This document shows positions 1,588-7,982 of a stretch of 64,000 nt of DNA, piece by piece. The stretch lies in the NCBI RefSeq assembly GCF_019802125.1, contig NZ_JAHVHT010000002.1, forward strand, positions 124,001-188,000, in the 5' to 3' direction. Below the pieces are notes generated by a model. It saw nothing but the letters and a program-made list of their open reading frames with translations, had not been told where the DNA came from and made no database searches. This DNA comes from Tateyamaria omphalii (GTDB lineage: Bacteria > Pseudomonadota > Alphaproteobacteria > Rhodobacterales > Rhodobacteraceae). The translations under genes and the position numbers were made by a program. Each line of letters begins with the position of its first letter. Position 1 is the stretch's first letter.

Positions 1588-2541
1588 ATGATTGAACCAG
1601 TGACCAATCCTTTCACCCGTTTTCCAGCCTGTATCGCCCTGCCTCTCACGATGATCGGACAGTTTGCAGAGGCAGACCCATTTGAAGCACGCGACCCGTC
1701 CTGGGTGGCGCGCGGATATATCGACACCACGGATCGCATTGTCGATCAGGGCAACAGTTCCGTGGCAAGTGAACTGCTGTATGGGCCCATACTCGAATTG
1801 AATGGTCGATACGAATGGCGCAACGACCGGGGCGGTCGCATATTTGTTGATCCCCTGGCGGTCACAAGACTGTTTCCTGATGATTCCGACGTGAACGATC
1901 TGCGCGTCGGTCTGTTTGGCGAATACCGTTTCAGGCCGGACCAGTCCGAGAATACGGAGTTTCGTCTGCGCACCGGAGTGGAAAGAACCACCAGCTTCCC
2001 TGACGAGCGCTTCCGTCGCTACACCCTTCAAGGGGCAGTGAACGTCCGTCATGACAGACGGCAAACCAGCACATTTACCCTGCGCTATCGCTACCGTGAC
2101 CAAAACGAGGAGGCCACGTTCGATGGCTTCGACCAAGACGAATACCTGGGCAGCTGGCGCCGCACCTGGCAACCCGAGGGCAGCGCGATCGAACTGATTG
2201 CCCTAACGCCCTACTTCGACATCCGCGACGCAGATGCACGGAAGTTCAGTTACGATGAAGTCGGTATCCGGCTGCAGGCGCGATATCGTGTGTCGGAAGA
2301 CGTGACCCTGACCGGACGCGCCCGCATGTTCAAGCGCGACTACAAGGACAGTTTTTCAAACGCGTTTGATTTCGAACGTTCGGACGACCGGTTTGGCGTG
2401 GAACTGGAATGGCGCAAAACCTATCCTGCAGGGCGCGCACTTTTCGGCGCCATCGGCTGGGAAGAAAATCGATCCAACGTACCAGTGCGTGCTTTCAGCG
2501 GCGTGACAGTTCGCTTCGGATTCGAGATCACGTTGCTCTAG
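1588..2541 (+). CDS. Putative outer-membrane beta-barrel protein of the polysaccharide locus
   Basis: A 317-residue protein with a short, weakly hydrophobic N-terminus ending in FAEA-DPF, which could be a signal peptide. The rest is dominated by alternating hydrophobic and polar stretches rich in Arg, Tyr and Phe (for example TLRYRYRD, IRLQARYRV, VTVRFGFEI), the pattern of membrane beta-strands. It lies tail to tail with the BcsA-like synthase (10 bp between stop codons). A role in export or surface display of the polymer is a guess from position. It lacks the TPR repeats of BcsC. The ribosome-binding site is weak, so the start is uncertain. Confidence 0.6.
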   Translation: MIEPVTNPFTRFPACIALPLTMIGQFAEADPFEARDPSWVARGYIDTTDRIVDQGNSSVASELLYGPILELNGRYEWRNDRGGRIFVDPLAVTRLFPDDSDVNDLRVGLFGEYRFRPDQSENTEFRLRTGVERTTSFPDERFRRYTLQGAVNVRHDRRQTSTFTLRYRYRDQNEEATFDGFDQDEYLGSWRRTWQPEGSAIELIALTPYFDIRDADARKFSYDEVGIRLQARYRVSEDVTLTGRARMFKRDYKDSFSNAFDFERSDDRFGVELEWRKTYPAGRALFGAIGWEENRSNVPVRAFSGVTVRFGFEITLL

Positions 2542-2551
2542 CAACGCGCAA

Positions 2552-4414
2552 TCACGCCTCGCTTCTCCGAACCGGTTCGCCCTTTCGGCGTTTGATCGTT
2601 TGTGCCTTCGCATTCACGTCTGCGTACATCGATCCCGATGACATCTTGAGATTGATGGACAGGTTGGATTCGAGCGTGAAATACGAACGCAGCAAGCGGA
2701 AAACCACATATTCCGGCAGATACAGGAGCTGCACGAAATAACCGTTCACGATCAGGGCCAGCACAGAGATCAGCATCGGCGCGCCGAGAATGACGGCCAG
2801 GACGGCCTGCAACTGCAGCACATCCAATGTCTTGAACTCGCCGAAATACTCTATGAAACCGAACAGGATCAGTGGGATCATCATCGCCCGGCGCGCCGAA
2901 TTGAGCAGCATGTAAGGCAGGATGATCTTGCCGCGAAAGCTGACTTCGGAACTGAAGACAACGGCACGACATCGCGCGGCAACGTGGTAGGTGGATCGGA
3001 ACCAACGCATGCGCTGTTCGCGCATATGCGCATATGTTCGCGGTACTTCGGAAACAAAACGCACTTCGGGGTCCACAATCAGGCGATAGCCCAGCTCACC
3101 GATACGCAAGGACATCTCCGTGTCCTCGCCGTTCATGCCGCCAGCGAAACCGCCAAGCTGACGCGGCAGTTCTGTCCGATAGATGACGAACATGCCGGGC
3201 ACTCCGACGATGCCGTTGATCGCGGCAAGACCCACCGAGTACATGCCATGTTTCACAATCGCCTCGACCTGGCGGGCGCGGTCAAACAAACCGCCGCCGG
3301 GTGACAATGGCAAACCGCCCAGGGCACCGACCTCATCGTTGAAGAAATAGGTCATGCCCCGCAGAAACGCTCTGGGCTGTATGATCGTATCCGCATCAAT
3401 ACGAACGAAAAAGTCGGTTTCAACCGCGCTGAGACCAAGGTTCAGAGCGTTGGCCTTGCCCGGTCGCGGCTCATGCAGGACCCGGACATCGGCATGTTCA
3501 AGTTCGGCCGACACCCGCCTGACAACTGCGACCGTGTCGTCCGTCGAAGCGTTGTCGACAAACAGCACCGTGACTTTGCCGTCATAGTTAGCCGCTGCTG
3601 CCTCAACACCGCGCAGCGTCTTTTCAATGATGTGCATTTCATTATGCGCCGGAATGACGACAGAAATATCGGGCGCAAAGGTTCGTATCCGGAACAGCGC
3701 CTGATCGACCAGACCACCAAGGAACAGGAAGGCAAAGAATGCCGGGAGGAACAGAAACACCCCGGGCCCGATCCCGCCCAACAACGAATTGCTGCGCAGC
3801 GCCTCAACCACGCCGAAGTCACGGTTCAGCACGAAAATCGCAAGCCAGGTGCAATAGACGGAGATGACGGCGACCCGCAAAAGCGTTTGACGGTTCTGAG
3901 TGGTGTCGATTGTCATCGGCACGGAGGCGGGCATGCGACCGCGCTCAAGCAGTTTTGCAGAAAACACCCCAAACCCCAGGATGCCGGAGAGGATCGCGAC
4001 CGCCGTGAGCGGCAGGGTGTGATCAATCGTCAGGTCAAGCAGGATGGTCGTCAGGTCCAGGGCCAGGCAGAGCACAGCAAAGGACAGGCACAGATCCAAT
4101 CCCATGAGCACCTTCTTGAAGGGGTTGGCATGGCAGAAGACGGAATAGGAAATGAAGAAACTGACGATGAAGATACGTACAGAGATAGAGTGCGCACCCT
4201 GAAAAGGGCCGATGATCAAATCCCCGCTGGGAAATGTTTGTCGAAGAATCGGAACCGTATTGACGGTGAACAGGAGCACGACACTGAGCACGCAAAACAG
4301 CCCGAGCAGCGCGGGACCGTACCAAAGCGGGACGGAATGCGACAGCCCCCGTGGCGTCGAATCGACCGACGCGAACTGGAAGTAAGGCTGTTTCTTTTCC
4401 TTGGGCCTGTTCAT
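2552..4414 (-). CDS. Processive family 2 glycosyltransferase, BcsA-like
   Basis: Membrane polysaccharide synthase of 620 residues. Hydrophobic segments near 34-52, 80-96, 105-152, 178-197 and 211-235 precede the cytosolic GT-A domain (about 248-475), and more membrane segments follow. All GT2 landmarks are present: VVIPAHNE (252-259), VDNAS (Asp 287), DAD (340-342), GED with the likely catalytic base (429-431) and QRMRW (467-471), the product-binding Q-x-x-R-W motif of cellulose, chitin and hyaluronan synthases. The tail after the last helices is short and has no PilZ domain, so direct c-di-GMP control is not expected. The start overlaps the BcsB-like stop by 4 bp. The sugar donor is unknown. 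Confidence 0.88.
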   Translation of the reverse strand: MNRPKEKKQPYFQFASVDSTPRGLSHSVPLWYGPALLGLFCVLSVVLLFTVNTVPILRQTFPSGDLIIGPFQGAHSISVRIFIVSFFISYSVFCHANPFKKVLMGLDLCLSFAVLCLALDLTTILLDLTIDHTLPLTAVAILSGILGFGVFSAKLLERGRMPASVPMTIDTTQNRQTLLRVAVISVYCTWLAIFVLNRDFGVVEALRSNSLLGGIGPGVFLFLPAFFAFLFLGGLVDQALFRIRTFAPDISVVIPAHNEMHIIEKTLRGVEAAAANYDGKVTVLFVDNASTDDTVAVVRRVSAELEHADVRVLHEPRPGKANALNLGLSAVETDFFVRIDADTIIQPRAFLRGMTYFFNDEVGALGGLPLSPGGGLFDRARQVEAIVKHGMYSVGLAAINGIVGVPGMFVIYRTELPRQLGGFAGGMNGEDTEMSLRIGELGYRLIVDPEVRFVSEVPRTYAHMREQRMRWFRSTYHVAARCRAVVFSSEVSFRGKIILPYMLLNSARRAMMIPLILFGFIEYFGEFKTLDVLQLQAVLAVILGAPMLISVLALIVNGYFVQLLYLPEYVVFRLLRSYFTLESNLSINLKMSSGSMYADVNAKAQTIKRRKGEPVRRSEA

Positions 4415-6261
4415 TCCGATATGTCAGGCAAGGTTGCTGTACTCCCCGTTGTGTCAGGCAACGTTTGCGTCCCGGTCGTCGCAGATGATTGGCTGGGAAT
4501 GGGCGACGCATTGCCTTGCTCTGTTGCATCAATTTCAGACGGCTCGGCAGCGGGCTCCGCATCTGGCTGCGGGACTGTGTCGTCCTCTGACGTTGGATCC
4601 TGTTCCGGGTCAGCCGATGTCTCGGTTTCAAGGTCGTCCACTACGGGCATCGGTCGGGGTTTGATCGCAACAATGGCGGCAATCCTGGGCCCTTCGTTCA
4701 ATTCGAAGTCCAGCAAAGAGATGTCAGTCAGTTCGGTCTGGCGGTAGGGCAACTCACCCCGATCATACAAACGGGGAGAAATCAGCCAGAATGTGTGGTC
4801 AGGCCAGGTCTGCTGAATTTCGGCAAAGCGGTTTTGCAGTTCGGACCGGGTGTTGACGAGCACATGGTCGTCCTGAGGTCCGGCAGCATCCCCTGTGATC
4901 CACTGAACGCGGTTTCCGAACGCCTCGGCCAAAAAGGGAACTGCAGTCGACGCCTCCGCCGCATTGAGCTGATCCGAAACCTCAAGATGCAGCGGGCCGT
5001 TCAACGCATTGATGAACTGACCGATGGTCCGGTCTTCGGCCGGGACACCGCCACGGAGCACGGTGCTTTGCTTGAGCTGGGCGGTGATCGGCGAACCCGT
5101 CGTACAGAACTCCTGGTTCTGTCGTTCCGAACTGATCAATCGGATCTCCAGGACATTGCTGAAGTCGTGCAGCCGCTCCGGCAGCTCTACTGTCCGGTTC
5201 AGGTCCAGAGATGCACCTTCGAACTTCTCGGCGAAGACGATTACATCGTTCAATGTGACGGTGAGCAACCATTCGGCTTCGGCCTGCAAGCCAATGGCAC
5301 GCATGCCAAAGGCCAGTGCCGTGGGATACTCGGCATTGGGCGTCGTCCGCAGATCGTAAGCATACCTCCACGCCGTGTCGTACTCGAAATAGCGTGCTTC
5401 AGCGAGACTGCCTTCCAATGCAATAGGAAGAGGCCAGGCAACTTCATCCACCTCGCGGACGGCATTTTCCATCATGCGCGCAGCAGTGGAGAAATCATCG
5501 GGCGAAAAGCGAACGCCGGCAGGCACGACCTCGGCATCCGCAGGCACAAATACGGTGCGGATGTCTCGAAAGCTCTGGTCCACCGCAAAACTGATCAGGC
5601 TCTCGTATTCGATGTTCTCGGGGTTGTCCGGCCAAGAGATATGATAGGGATTGCCGGTTGCGCGCAGGCGATCATTCAGATCCAGCAACGGCCCCTCGGT
5701 CTCGAGCTCGATCCGGCTGGTGGGTTCGATACGGACGATCATGCCGCCATTCCAATCCCGTCGGCAGGACTGGTTGGCGAACGTACCGGAGGCGCCCAGC
5801 GTCACCAGCAACTGACTTTGGGTCAGATCGGAAGGCAGCAGGTTGATGCGGATGGTGTTTGCGTTCACCCCCTCGGACAAGACGATCTCGCCCCGTCGCT
5901 CACCGTTCACGTTGATCCGCATCCGCGCCACGGAGTCGGGTTGCAACTCTGCCCGTACATCCAGGATCAGTTCGCCGCTCACAACGGGCACTTCCTTGGG
6001 CATGTTAAACGAAGCAGAGGCGAAGCCTGGCGACCCGGTCAGGGCCGTCCAGGTATCACTTTCGCGCACGATAAAGGTGTGTTGCGTACCGTCAGCACTT
6101 TGTAGCTCTGTATCCGTGGGAAGCCGGGATACCAGATCGTGCTGAATACGCTGATTGCCGTCCCTCAGGCCAACGAAGCTTTGCACATCCGGTTGCATCA
6201 GGGCGAAGCGTGCAAGCGCCACCATCAAAATTGTAAAAAGCCCAAGGCCAAGAAGACGCAT
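4411..6261 (-). CDS. BcsB-like periplasmic subunit of a polysaccharide synthase
   Basis: A 616-residue protein with one N-terminal hydrophobic segment (about 3-20) and then a long beta-rich periplasmic region resembling BcsB, the cellulose synthase partner with alternating carbohydrate-binding and flavodoxin-like domains. Stretches such as ARMRINVNGERRGEIV and WLLTVTLNDVIVF fit the jelly-roll parts. It differs from classical BcsB in lacking a C-terminal membrane helix; it ends in about 75 residues rich in Asp, Glu, Pro, Ser and Thr. Two Cys (in NQSCRRD and EFCTT) may form a disulfide. Translationally coupled to the BcsA-like gene, so the two probably form one complex. Confidence 0.8.
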   Translation of the reverse strand: MRLLGLGLFTILMVALARFALMQPDVQSFVGLRDGNQRIQHDLVSRLPTDTELQSADGTQHTFIVRESDTWTALTGSPGFASASFNMPKEVPVVSGELILDVRAELQPDSVARMRINVNGERRGEIVLSEGVNANTIRINLLPSDLTQSQLLVTLGASGTFANQSCRRDWNGGMIVRIEPTSRIELETEGPLLDLNDRLRATGNPYHISWPDNPENIEYESLISFAVDQSFRDIRTVFVPADAEVVPAGVRFSPDDFSTAARMMENAVREVDEVAWPLPIALEGSLAEARYFEYDTAWRYAYDLRTTPNAEYPTALAFGMRAIGLQAEAEWLLTVTLNDVIVFAEKFEGASLDLNRTVELPERLHDFSNVLEIRLISSERQNQEFCTTGSPITAQLKQSTVLRGGVPAEDRTIGQFINALNGPLHLEVSDQLNAAEASTAVPFLAEAFGNRVQWITGDAAGPQDDHVLVNTRSELQNRFAEIQQTWPDHTFWLISPRLYDRGELPYRQTELTDISLLDFELNEGPRIAAIVAIKPRPMPVVDDLETETSADPEQDPTSEDDTVPQPDAEPAAEPSEIDATEQGNASPIPSQSSATTGTQTLPDTTGSTATLPDISE

Positions 6262-6311
6262 GATTTTACCTGTTTGCGGCTATCGGTACTGAAATTGGAA
6301 GAAACGATGGG

Positions 6312-7532
6312 TCAAGCGACGCCTTTCATCGGATCCGATCCAATCGTACCCGGCTGTTGTTCAGGTGTCCAAGTGGACCGGGCTGGAATTTGCGCGGGAT
6401 CACACCGGTGCTGGTACTTCTTCGCGATGGAAACGCTCTCATGCAGCAATCCGTCTTCAAGGGTGATGGGCTTCAATCCGTCGTCAAGAAATGACTTGTT
6501 GGACACGCGCAAGTCATTCTCGGCTGCCTCCTTCCGCGGATTGCTGACCATTTCCACAGTGCTTCCGGTGATGCGGGCAACAATCTGGGCAAGATCGCGG
6601 ACACGGTGCGTTTCGGTCATCTGGTTTCGAATGCACACTTTGTCGCCGCGTTCCGGCGGGTTCTCCAATGCCAGGGTAATGCAGTTGACGGTATCGGCGA
6701 TATTGATGAAGGCACGGGTCTGCCCCCCTGTGCCATGCACCGTAAGAGGATGACCGATCGCAGCCTGCATCAGGAAGCGATTCAATACGGTTCCATAGTC
6801 ACCATCATAGTCGAAGCGGTTGGACAGCCGCTCGTCCATCCGCGTTTCATCCGTTTGCGTACCCCAGACAATGCCTTGGTGCAGGTCCGTGATCCGTATG
6901 CCGTCATTTCTGGCATAGAACTGGAACATCAACTGATCCATGGACTTCGTCATGTGGTAGACGCTGCCAGGGTTGGTCGGATACAGGATGTCGCGGTCAA
7001 ACAATCTGCCGTCATCGGCTTCGACCTTGATCGGAAGGTATCCTTCGGGGATTTCCAACCCATCCCCATCGTATCCGTACACCCCCATCGTGCCCAAATG
7101 GACGACATGCGTATCAATTCGCAGGGCAGCAATCGCGCAAAGAAGATTGTGCGTTCCGCGAATGTTGTTGCTGACCGTATATCGTTTTTCGGATGTGCCA
7201 CGCATCGAATACGGCGCTGCACGCTGTTCGCCGAAGTGGATCACCGCGTCCGGCCACAAACGTTCGATACAGTCTTTCAAGGCGTCGTATTGCCTCGCAA
7301 TATCAATGCGTTCAAAGGAAATGCGGCGTCCAGTCACCTGTTCCCAAGTGTCCAAACGGGTGTGTAAGTCCGCGATCGGTGTGAGACTGTCCGCTCCAAG
7401 CGCATCGGCAATTTTTCGCCGGGAGAAGTCATCCACGATGGTGACATCGTACCCCAGGCTCGAAAGCCGCAGGGCAGTTGGCCATCCACAAAATCCATCG
7501 CCGCCAATTACAAGTACGTTTTGTCCACGCAT
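6312..7532 (-). CDS. sqdB: UDP-sulfoquinovose synthase (SQD1/SqdB type)
   Basis: Extended short-chain dehydrogenase of 406 residues that should form UDP-sulfoquinovose from UDP-glucose and sulfite. Diagnostic SQD1 features are the NAD loop VIGGDGFCGW (8-17), DSLTPI (48-53), HFGEQRAAPYSM (99-110), LGTMGVYG (146-153, with the active-site Thr) and YHMTK (192-196, catalytic Tyr and Lys). These set it apart from GalE-like epimerases. I chose the ATG with GGGGG six bases upstream, because homologs begin just before the dinucleotide loop; upstream TTG codons could add about 20 residues. It lies 50 bp upstream of the BcsB-like gene in the same direction. No sqdA, sqdC or sqdD is adjacent. Confidence 0.87.
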   Translation of the reverse strand: MRGQNVLVIGGDGFCGWPTALRLSSLGYDVTIVDDFSRRKIADALGADSLTPIADLHTRLDTWEQVTGRRISFERIDIARQYDALKDCIERLWPDAVIHFGEQRAAPYSMRGTSEKRYTVSNNIRGTHNLLCAIAALRIDTHVVHLGTMGVYGYDGDGLEIPEGYLPIKVEADDGRLFDRDILYPTNPGSVYHMTKSMDQLMFQFYARNDGIRITDLHQGIVWGTQTDETRMDERLSNRFDYDGDYGTVLNRFLMQAAIGHPLTVHGTGGQTRAFINIADTVNCITLALENPPERGDKVCIRNQMTETHRVRDLAQIVARITGSTVEMVSNPRKEAAENDLRVSNKSFLDDGLKPITLEDGLLHESVSIAKKYQHRCDPAQIPARSTWTPEQQPGTIGSDPMKGVA

Positions 7533-7982
7533 GTCGCGCCCCCAGTTGGATGAATGTTCTTGAAGTTTGATGCCTAAGCGTGTCAATTTCAACCTCAGGT
7601 AGAAAAATTATGCTAAGTTTTACAATTTGTTCCAAACACCTGGGTGCTTAAGCATCACTTTCGAGATTTAGGAATCTGCGCAAAATACACGCAGCATCGA
7701 ACTCCAGACGCCACCGTCAGTCGATCGAAAAAAGTGTTAAGACACCGTAACATACCGTATCTCCCAAAGAAAGATGCTACCGGAGGCTGTATCCAAAAAA
7801 CGCATCACCGCAGAAGATATGCGGCGTGGGTTTACTTGGTGGATAAAAAAACCCGGGCACAATGGCCCGGGCAAGTCCAACAGGGAGGTGCATGTATAGC
7901 CGCGAGGCGGCCCCGACATGCGCGGGCTTCGTACCGGTAACTTCAGCCATAGCGGAAAGTTCCGCCATGACCCAAGTCAATC
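7533..7982. other. AT-richer intergenic region upstream of sqdB
   Basis: About 450 bp between sqdB and the response regulator, more AT-rich than its surroundings. It should contain the leftward promoter of the polysaccharide operon, and it contains the terminator of the response-regulator gene at its right end. I could not single out a confident promoter or operator. No convincing reading frame is present. Confidence 0.5.
7845..7872 (-). terminator. Rho-independent terminator of the response-regulator gene
   Basis: Inverted repeat CCCGGGC / GCCCGGG (7852-7858 and 7865-7871) with a 6-base loop. Read leftward it is followed by a run of seven T (7845-7851). It lies about 110 bp past the stop of the leftward response regulator. 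Confidence 0.85.

Follow-up and report, generated by a model that had tools for sequence, protein, structure and literature searches.

Coupling of a UDP-sulfoquinovose synthase homologue to a BcsA/BcsB-like synthase: a possible system for sulfonated exopolysaccharide

Introduction

The available extract of one review presents sulfoquinovose as a photosynthetic lipid head group and as part of archaeal N-glycans, and names no other forms (PMC12890257). UDP-sulfoquinovose, the activated sugar, is made by SqdB, which is best known for synthesis of the sulfolipid SQDG; according to the available part of another paper, the archaeal Agl3 pathway provides it for a Sulfolobus N-glycan rather than for a lipid (PMC4388408). 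Cellulose is polymerised by BcsA with BcsB, the latter having a tail anchor at its C-terminus; in the experiments covered by the accessible text, BcsA needs no more of BcsB than this part in vitro (PMC11470070). Among the papers listed by searches of the open-access literature, outside which most subscription papers lie, none deals with a polymer of sulfoquinovose from bacteria or with an SqdB alongside a BcsB-type synthase. The roseobacter clade is otherwise discussed, in the part available of a further paper, as an organosulfur degrader (PMC13372026).

Here we describe a locus in a 64,000-nucleotide stretch of the Tateyamaria omphalii genome (hereafter the window) in which an sqdB homologue precedes genes for a BcsB-like protein and a membrane glycosyltransferase of family GT2. 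The original prediction, made without database searches, was that this operon supplies an unusual sugar to a polymer synthase and so yields a sulfoquinovose-containing polysaccharide. Comparative genomics supports that reading; the chemistry is a prediction from it.

Results and discussion

Layout of the locus

The genes and motifs are collected in Table 1. An SQD1/SqdB-type gene had been placed 50 bp ahead of a BcsB-like gene, itself overlapping a GT2 gene with DAD, GED and QxxRW motifs, and a barrel-like gene had been placed convergent to the last; every one of these positions and motifs was recovered, as were the SqdB motifs taken to be diagnostic. The BcsB-like gene and the GT2 gene overlap by 4 bp, and the ends of the GT2 and barrel genes lie 10 bp apart. 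Since a terminator-like hairpin lies 3' of the upstream response-regulator gene, sqdB may start its own transcript, although the hairpin is a pattern match and eight such hairpins were found against 6.9 expected in shuffles. The window operon contains no sulfite-supplying gene. The arrangement is more than chance, for it recurs in many genomes.

Table 1. Positions in the window of the genes and sequence features discussed
Feature	Position	Strand	Details
sqdB, UDP-sulfoquinovose synthase homologue	6312..7532	(-)	406 aa; ATG at 7532; Pfam Epimerase
SqdB GTMGVYG motif	7074..7094	(-)	by alignment; T148 equated by homology with the Thr of the SDR triad
SqdB YHMTK motif	6945..6959	(-)	by alignments; Y192 and K196 of YxxxK
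BcsB-like co-polymerase gene	4411..6261	(-)	616 aa; Pfam BcsB and predicted fold
Processive GT2 membrane synthase gene (protein P0002)	2552..4414	(-)	620 aa; Pfam Glyco_tranf_2_3, E 1.2e-24
GT2 DAD (DxD-type) motif	3389..3397	(-)	residues 340-342
GT2 GED motif	3122..3130	(-)	residues 429-431
GT2 QRMRW (QxxRW) motif	3002..3016	(-)	residues 467-471
Outer-membrane beta-barrel gene, proposed export channel	1588..2541	(+)	Pfam SlipAM, E 4.9e-5
Terminator-like hairpin	7851..7872	(-)	between upstream response-regulator gene and sqdB; pattern match alone

Conservation across genomes

Adjacency of SqdB-like, BcsB-like and GT2 genes in other genomes had been proposed as a check, and scans of the genus, the family and named genomes show it to be conserved. 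Among 20 genomes of the genus (that of the window, G000, included) the BcsB-like protein is present in eight and SqdB in the same eight. Counting alone would give this exact overlap once in 125970, a figure that ignores shared descent and so, for related genomes, is no real probability. In a family sample of 149 genomes, with at most nine BcsB candidates scored in each, BcsB was matched in seven and SqdB in 37; all seven fall within the 37, and in all seven SqdB lies beside the BcsB-GT2 genes. The remaining 30 SqdB genomes are without a BcsB match, which we count against a coupled function. In the class (n = 337) BcsB was matched in at least nine genomes and SqdB in at least 30, and in the phylum (n = 398) BcsB was matched in at least four, two of them weakly; with three to five candidates scored per genome these counts are lower bounds. 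SqdB lies beside BcsB in three of the nine class genomes (G000, G410 and G219). In six others (G207, G314, G325, G341, G404 and G437) the BcsB matches are partial, at 47-71 bits, and SqdB is missing at E <= 1e-50; these matches are taken for other BcsB proteins. The system is thus real but uncommon.

The triad SqdB-BcsB-GT2, in one order, is found in 18 of the best 80 of 579 SqdB relatives; the other 62 lack it, a few of their contigs being too short to tell. Carriers are Monaibacterium, Litoreibacter, Pseudoruegeria, Ruegeria atlantica, Octadecabacter, Pseudooceanicola, Roseicyclus, Tateyamaria, Pseudogemmobacter, Rhodobacteraceae HTCC2150, Dinoroseobacter, an alphaproteobacterium, a Rhizobiales bin and the gammaproteobacterium Alloalcanivorax marinus. 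Thirty loci with system genes were tabulated, counting the window and leaving out the short genus loci L007-L012 (L025 is probably the same as G011), and 25 of them keep SqdB-BcsB-GT2 on one strand. The exceptions are L096, with no SqdB; L110 and L111, where BcsB-GT2 is accompanied by a convergent SqdB; L113, with barrel-SqdB-BcsB; and L114, with SqdB-GT2. By genome, G189 has SqdB-GT2 with BcsB missing at the locus, and G219 has barrel-SqdB-BcsB with no GT2 beside them. In the Rhizobiales bin, whose locus counts among the 25, the BcsB-like gene is split between two frames (L067:11212-12868).

In G001 the barrel, GT2 and BcsB (79% identical) are kept without an adjacent SqdB; the single SqdB match of this genome is on a separate contig (L095, G001:C10), in a different glycan cluster. 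This cluster also holds PAPS-reductase-family, two-domain GT2/GT1, GT25-like, WcbI-like and sulfotransferase-like genes, the first of which is a possible source of sulfite. Two SqdBs that the tree places with those of triads (L023, 9902-11185; L093, 10004-11263) have no synthase nearby, and no lipid gene was seen among their scanned neighbours. Nor was any polysaccharide hydrolase or lyase found among the subset of neighbours scanned with Pfam. Bacillales and Corynebacterium, too, have SqdBs that share 61-65% identity with the clade query (L027, L029, L035-L037, L039, L046, L050, L055, L062, L064, L076, L080 and L085).

A second set in the same genome

The original prediction spoke of one SqdB-BcsB-GT2 set; that set stands, and the count is amended, as the genome (4.49 Mb in 12 contigs) holds two. 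It contains two strong SqdB matches, each inside such a set, and a third match at 22 bits. The second SqdB (C1:341117-342304), 67% identical to that of the window, has behind it a BcsB-like protein and a GT2 of its own, and after these come RTX repeat and Sel1/TPR-like proteins. Gene order is unchanged between the two sets, the BcsB proteins being 24-29% and the GT2s 44-45% identical. Neither BcsB-like protein of the genome has a match in 72,556 plasmid records, and plasmid-borne spread was rejected accordingly.

Loci of the second type, such as L004, have three genes upstream, encoding a response regulator (of LuxR type by eye), a small periplasmic protein of PF00174 and a hybrid histidine kinase (L004:5122-8962; similarly L015-L021 and L025). 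Homologues of all three occur at at least 10 of 20 loci compared, and the window is without them. The PF00174 (sulfite-oxidase-type) protein, of 164 aa, has its only cysteine in the apparent signal peptide and is possibly a cofactor-free sensor. The trio suggests control by a signal, in place of the PilZ-mediated c-di-GMP control of cellulose systems. Directly after GT2 stand the RTX calcium-binding repeat and Sel1/TPR-like proteins (L004:13873-16573; L025:14735-17418), for which calcium-mediated binding of an acidic polymer is conceivable.

SqdB and its product

The best solved relative of the window SqdB is Arabidopsis SQD1 (1i24), matched over the whole length (residues 11-392, E 1.3e-95). 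Against the NCBIfam model UDPsulfquin_syn it scores 326 bits, under the cut-off of 575, and two SqdBs of the sqdB-sqdD type fall below it likewise (327 and 337 bits). The Thr, Tyr and Lys of the SDR triad and the neighbouring Met are all present, roles being assigned within YHMTK by homology to Tyr182 and Lys186 of SQD1, as given in the available part of the source (PMC4388408). GTMGVYG was found in 104 of 105 aligned SqdB rows, in 12 of 12 lipid-type (sqdB-sqdD) rows and in 29 of 29 synthase-type rows; as it is common to lipid-type and synthase-type SqdBs, the same product is expected of both. According to the same extract, SQD1 and Agl3 have Glu where this motif has Val, and the Glu is proposed to be important in Agl3 (PMC4388408). 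Altered chemistry caused by the Val was rejected because the SqdBs of lipid operons also have it, in all 12 rows. Homology therefore points to UDP-sulfoquinovose as the presumed product of the window SqdB.

The SqdBs of this branch might instead make another UDP-sugar, through a different nucleophile or as an epimer such as sulfofucose, with a polymer containing that sugar. Thirteen alignment columns (one a gap) do separate 26 triad rows from 12 sqdB-sqdD rows, and at three of the 13 the triad residue is, in addition, not the one most frequent in the 61 other rows; the comparison was made without L110, L111, L113, L101, L106 and L107. The catalytic motifs, however, are identical, and two synthase loci (L110 and L111) have SqdBs of another lineage, so that we regard a different UDP-sugar as very unlikely.

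Lineages of SqdB were followed in a quick tree of 105 sequences, drawn without bootstrap and with long branches for L107, L101 and L106. The original prediction had called for comparison with lipid-type SqdBs in a tree, and here, in a tree that does not include Agl3, the 12 rows with an SqdD neighbour group together (100*), separately from the SqdBs of triads. A BcsB or GT2 neighbour is present in 29 rows, for which seven label changes are required against a shuffled mean of 25.6; starred branches force three of them, and counts of this kind do not distinguish a synthase neighbour gained from one lost. L110 and L111 join L095 of G001 in a clade (98*) apart from the window SqdB, and gene orientation at L110 and L111 differs too. 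SqdB partners of the synthase therefore come from at least two lineages, for which independent recruitment of SqdB would be the simplest reading.

Lipid or polymer

The most familiar role for an SqdB is in SQDG synthesis, and the active-site motifs of the window protein are those of SqdBs from sqdB-sqdD lipid operons. It might, then, be an ordinary sulfolipid enzyme with an unrelated synthase beside it. SqdD was found in four of 15 genomes tested, each with an sqdB-sqdD locus (G026, G113, G058 and G044); it was found in none of the eight genus carriers, G000 among them, and was likewise not found in G124, G051 and G119. Lipid glycosyltransferases other than SqdD were checked only weakly, with a query presumed to be SqdX, namely the gene adjoining sqdB in Corynebacterium L050, which NCBIfam identifies only as GT4-like. 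It matched in five of the 15 genomes, best in G410 (31-36% identity), and gave no match in G000 at E <= 1e-15. An sqdB-sqdD locus and a triad coexist in G044, and both G044 and G124 hold a separate second SqdB besides that of the triad. With the adjacency conserved, and the synthase partnered by SqdBs from at least two lineages, we consider an ordinary sulfolipid enzyme with a chance neighbour highly improbable. A plain SQDG operon was rejected because SqdD was not found, and the earlier claim that the locus does not serve plain sulfolipid synthesis agrees with this, both strong SqdBs of G000 sitting in synthase sets.

The synthase

The window GT2 belongs to a conserved family and has several hydrophobic segments; in a GT2 tree it groups with those of G001 and Monaibacterium. 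Its similarity to BcsA is weak (about 30 bits), it scores 22.5 of the 699 bits of the BcsA equivalog TIGR03030, and no PilZ match was found in it with Pfam. The best NCBIfam model, PgaC/IcaA, is matched far below its cut-off and does not tell the donor.

The assignment of its partner to BcsB is weak by sequence and clear by predicted fold. The Pfam BcsB match is confined to residues 73-200 (E 6.6e-6), and the same model matches 12 of 17 members of the family; there is no NCBIfam match, and a profile of the protein run against PDB sequences matched no BcsB. When its predicted structure (pLDDT 72.7) was searched with Foldseek, all of ranks 1-22 were BcsB or BcsA-BcsB chains, with E from 4.2e-18 (E. 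coli BcsB) to 1.8e-14 and TM of 0.34-0.40. Judged by hydropathy only, the eight members checked each have a single hydrophobic segment, which is N-terminal (residues 3-21 in the window protein), and none has a C-terminal tail anchor. A plain cellulose synthase was rejected on the missing PilZ and tail anchor and on the TIGR03030 score, as the original prediction had also held.

A candidate export channel

The barrel had been noted as a neighbour of the synthase; it now looks like part of the system. Its match to Pfam SlipAM covers residues 92-273 at 23.5 bits, just over the cut-off of 22, and its G001 homologue reaches 18.0 bits; in those from L049, L072 and L105 Pfam recognises nothing at E <= 0.01, and no TPR was matched in the window barrel. 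The predicted structure has about 15 strands (pLDDT 64.8; built from four sequences and confident only in the C-terminal half), and fold searches with it return generic porins (best E 1.5e-5). Barrel homologues are present at eight of the 30 loci (the window, L026, L049, L072, L096, L105, L112 and L113, the last at 60 bits). In five cases the barrel shares the direction of the rest of the set, after GT2 at L112, L105 and L026 and before SqdB at L049 and L113, and at L112 the barrel overlaps GT2 by 4 bp; the barrel is divergent at L072 and convergent at L096, as in the window. Six aligned barrels share YR(D/E)QN...F.G(F/Y)DQ.E, which reads YRDQN...F.GFDQ.EY in the window and is changed in L113. 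Within the genus the barrel is limited to two of 20 genomes, G000 and G001, and the second type would therefore have to export by other means.

Proposed function

From the observed genes, their order, conservation and co-occurrence, the pairing of the synthase with SqdBs from at least two lineages, and the failure to find SqdD, we infer each chemical step. SqdB would make UDP-sulfoquinovose from UDP-glucose and sulfite. The membrane GT2, judging from its motifs and hydropathy, would use this as its donor, or as one donor, and push the chain across the inner membrane, where the BcsB-like protein, held in the periplasm by an N-terminal helix, would guide it, as its fold suggests. At loci of the window type the beta-barrel, on the strength of linkage and predicted fold, would pass the chain through the outer membrane. 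The product would be a permanently anionic, sulfoquinovose-containing exopolysaccharide or capsule. That SqdB feeds UDP-sulfoquinovose to the GT2/BcsB-like synthase, so that a sulfoquinovose-containing polysaccharide is exported, we regard as probable. Weighing against it are the many SqdBs outside such sets, the loci that lack one member of the triad (G001, G189 and G219) or any synthase (L023 and L093), the missing sulfite-supplying gene and the Pfam-scanned neighbours devoid of hydrolases and lyases, and the occurrence of the barrel at a minority of loci.

How much sulfoquinovose such a polymer would contain is a separate matter. GT2 might polymerise an ordinary sugar such as glucose, sulfoquinovose serving only to cap or decorate the chain. 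The available part of one study reports that the hyaluronan synthase PmHAS adds sulfoquinovose from UDP-sulfoquinovose in vitro as a chain terminator (PMC11673988); this result cuts both ways, since it shows a polymer synthase accepting UDP-sulfoquinovose, in favour of the main reading, while stopping after one residue suggests that GT2 may not polymerise it. The distant PgaC/IcaA match leaves the donor unspecified. Against this, no second glycosyltransferase or sugar-nucleotide gene was seen among the annotated part of the neighbours shared between loci, and the existence of SqdB-GT2 without BcsB suggests that these two form the core of the system. Capping or decoration of an ordinary chain accordingly seems unlikely to us. 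One sugar-nucleotide gene with one synthase suggests a simple polymer, perhaps mostly of sulfoquinovose. A polysaccharide built mainly of this sugar would be a new class of strongly acidic biopolymer, with the sulfonate added at the sugar-nucleotide stage and not by sulfotransferases. It would also be a marine reservoir of sulfoquinovose outside lipids that has been overlooked; we put this forward tentatively, as a possibility that we somewhat doubt.

Marine bacteria may, then, build and export a sulfonated polysaccharide of an undescribed kind. If so, a bacterial sulfoquinovose polymer would add a source to the marine sulfur cycle, within the roseobacter clade, and would offer a short genetic route to sulfonated polysaccharides. 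As the system consists of three or four genes, it is directly testable.

Comparison with known systems

Like BcsA-BcsB, the locus sets a processive membrane GT2 with DxD, ED and QxxRW motifs beside a periplasmic protein of BcsB fold. It differs in a GT2 that is only weakly BcsA-like and lacks a PilZ match, in a BcsB-like protein anchored at the N-terminus instead of by a C-terminal tail, and in an operon that carries sqdB. With the sqdB-sqdD-sqdC operon it shares identical SqdB active-site motifs, but SqdD was not found in G000 and the window SqdB is placed elsewhere in the tree. The Agl3 pathway resembles the proposed one in directing UDP-sulfoquinovose to a glycan; it serves protein N-glycans, whereas the window couples the sugar nucleotide to a polymer synthase. 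Finally, the barrel matches the SlipAM (Slam) barrels in Pfam, but it differs from them in having no TPR match, in three homologues that Pfam does not recognise at E <= 0.01 and in being linked to polysaccharide genes.
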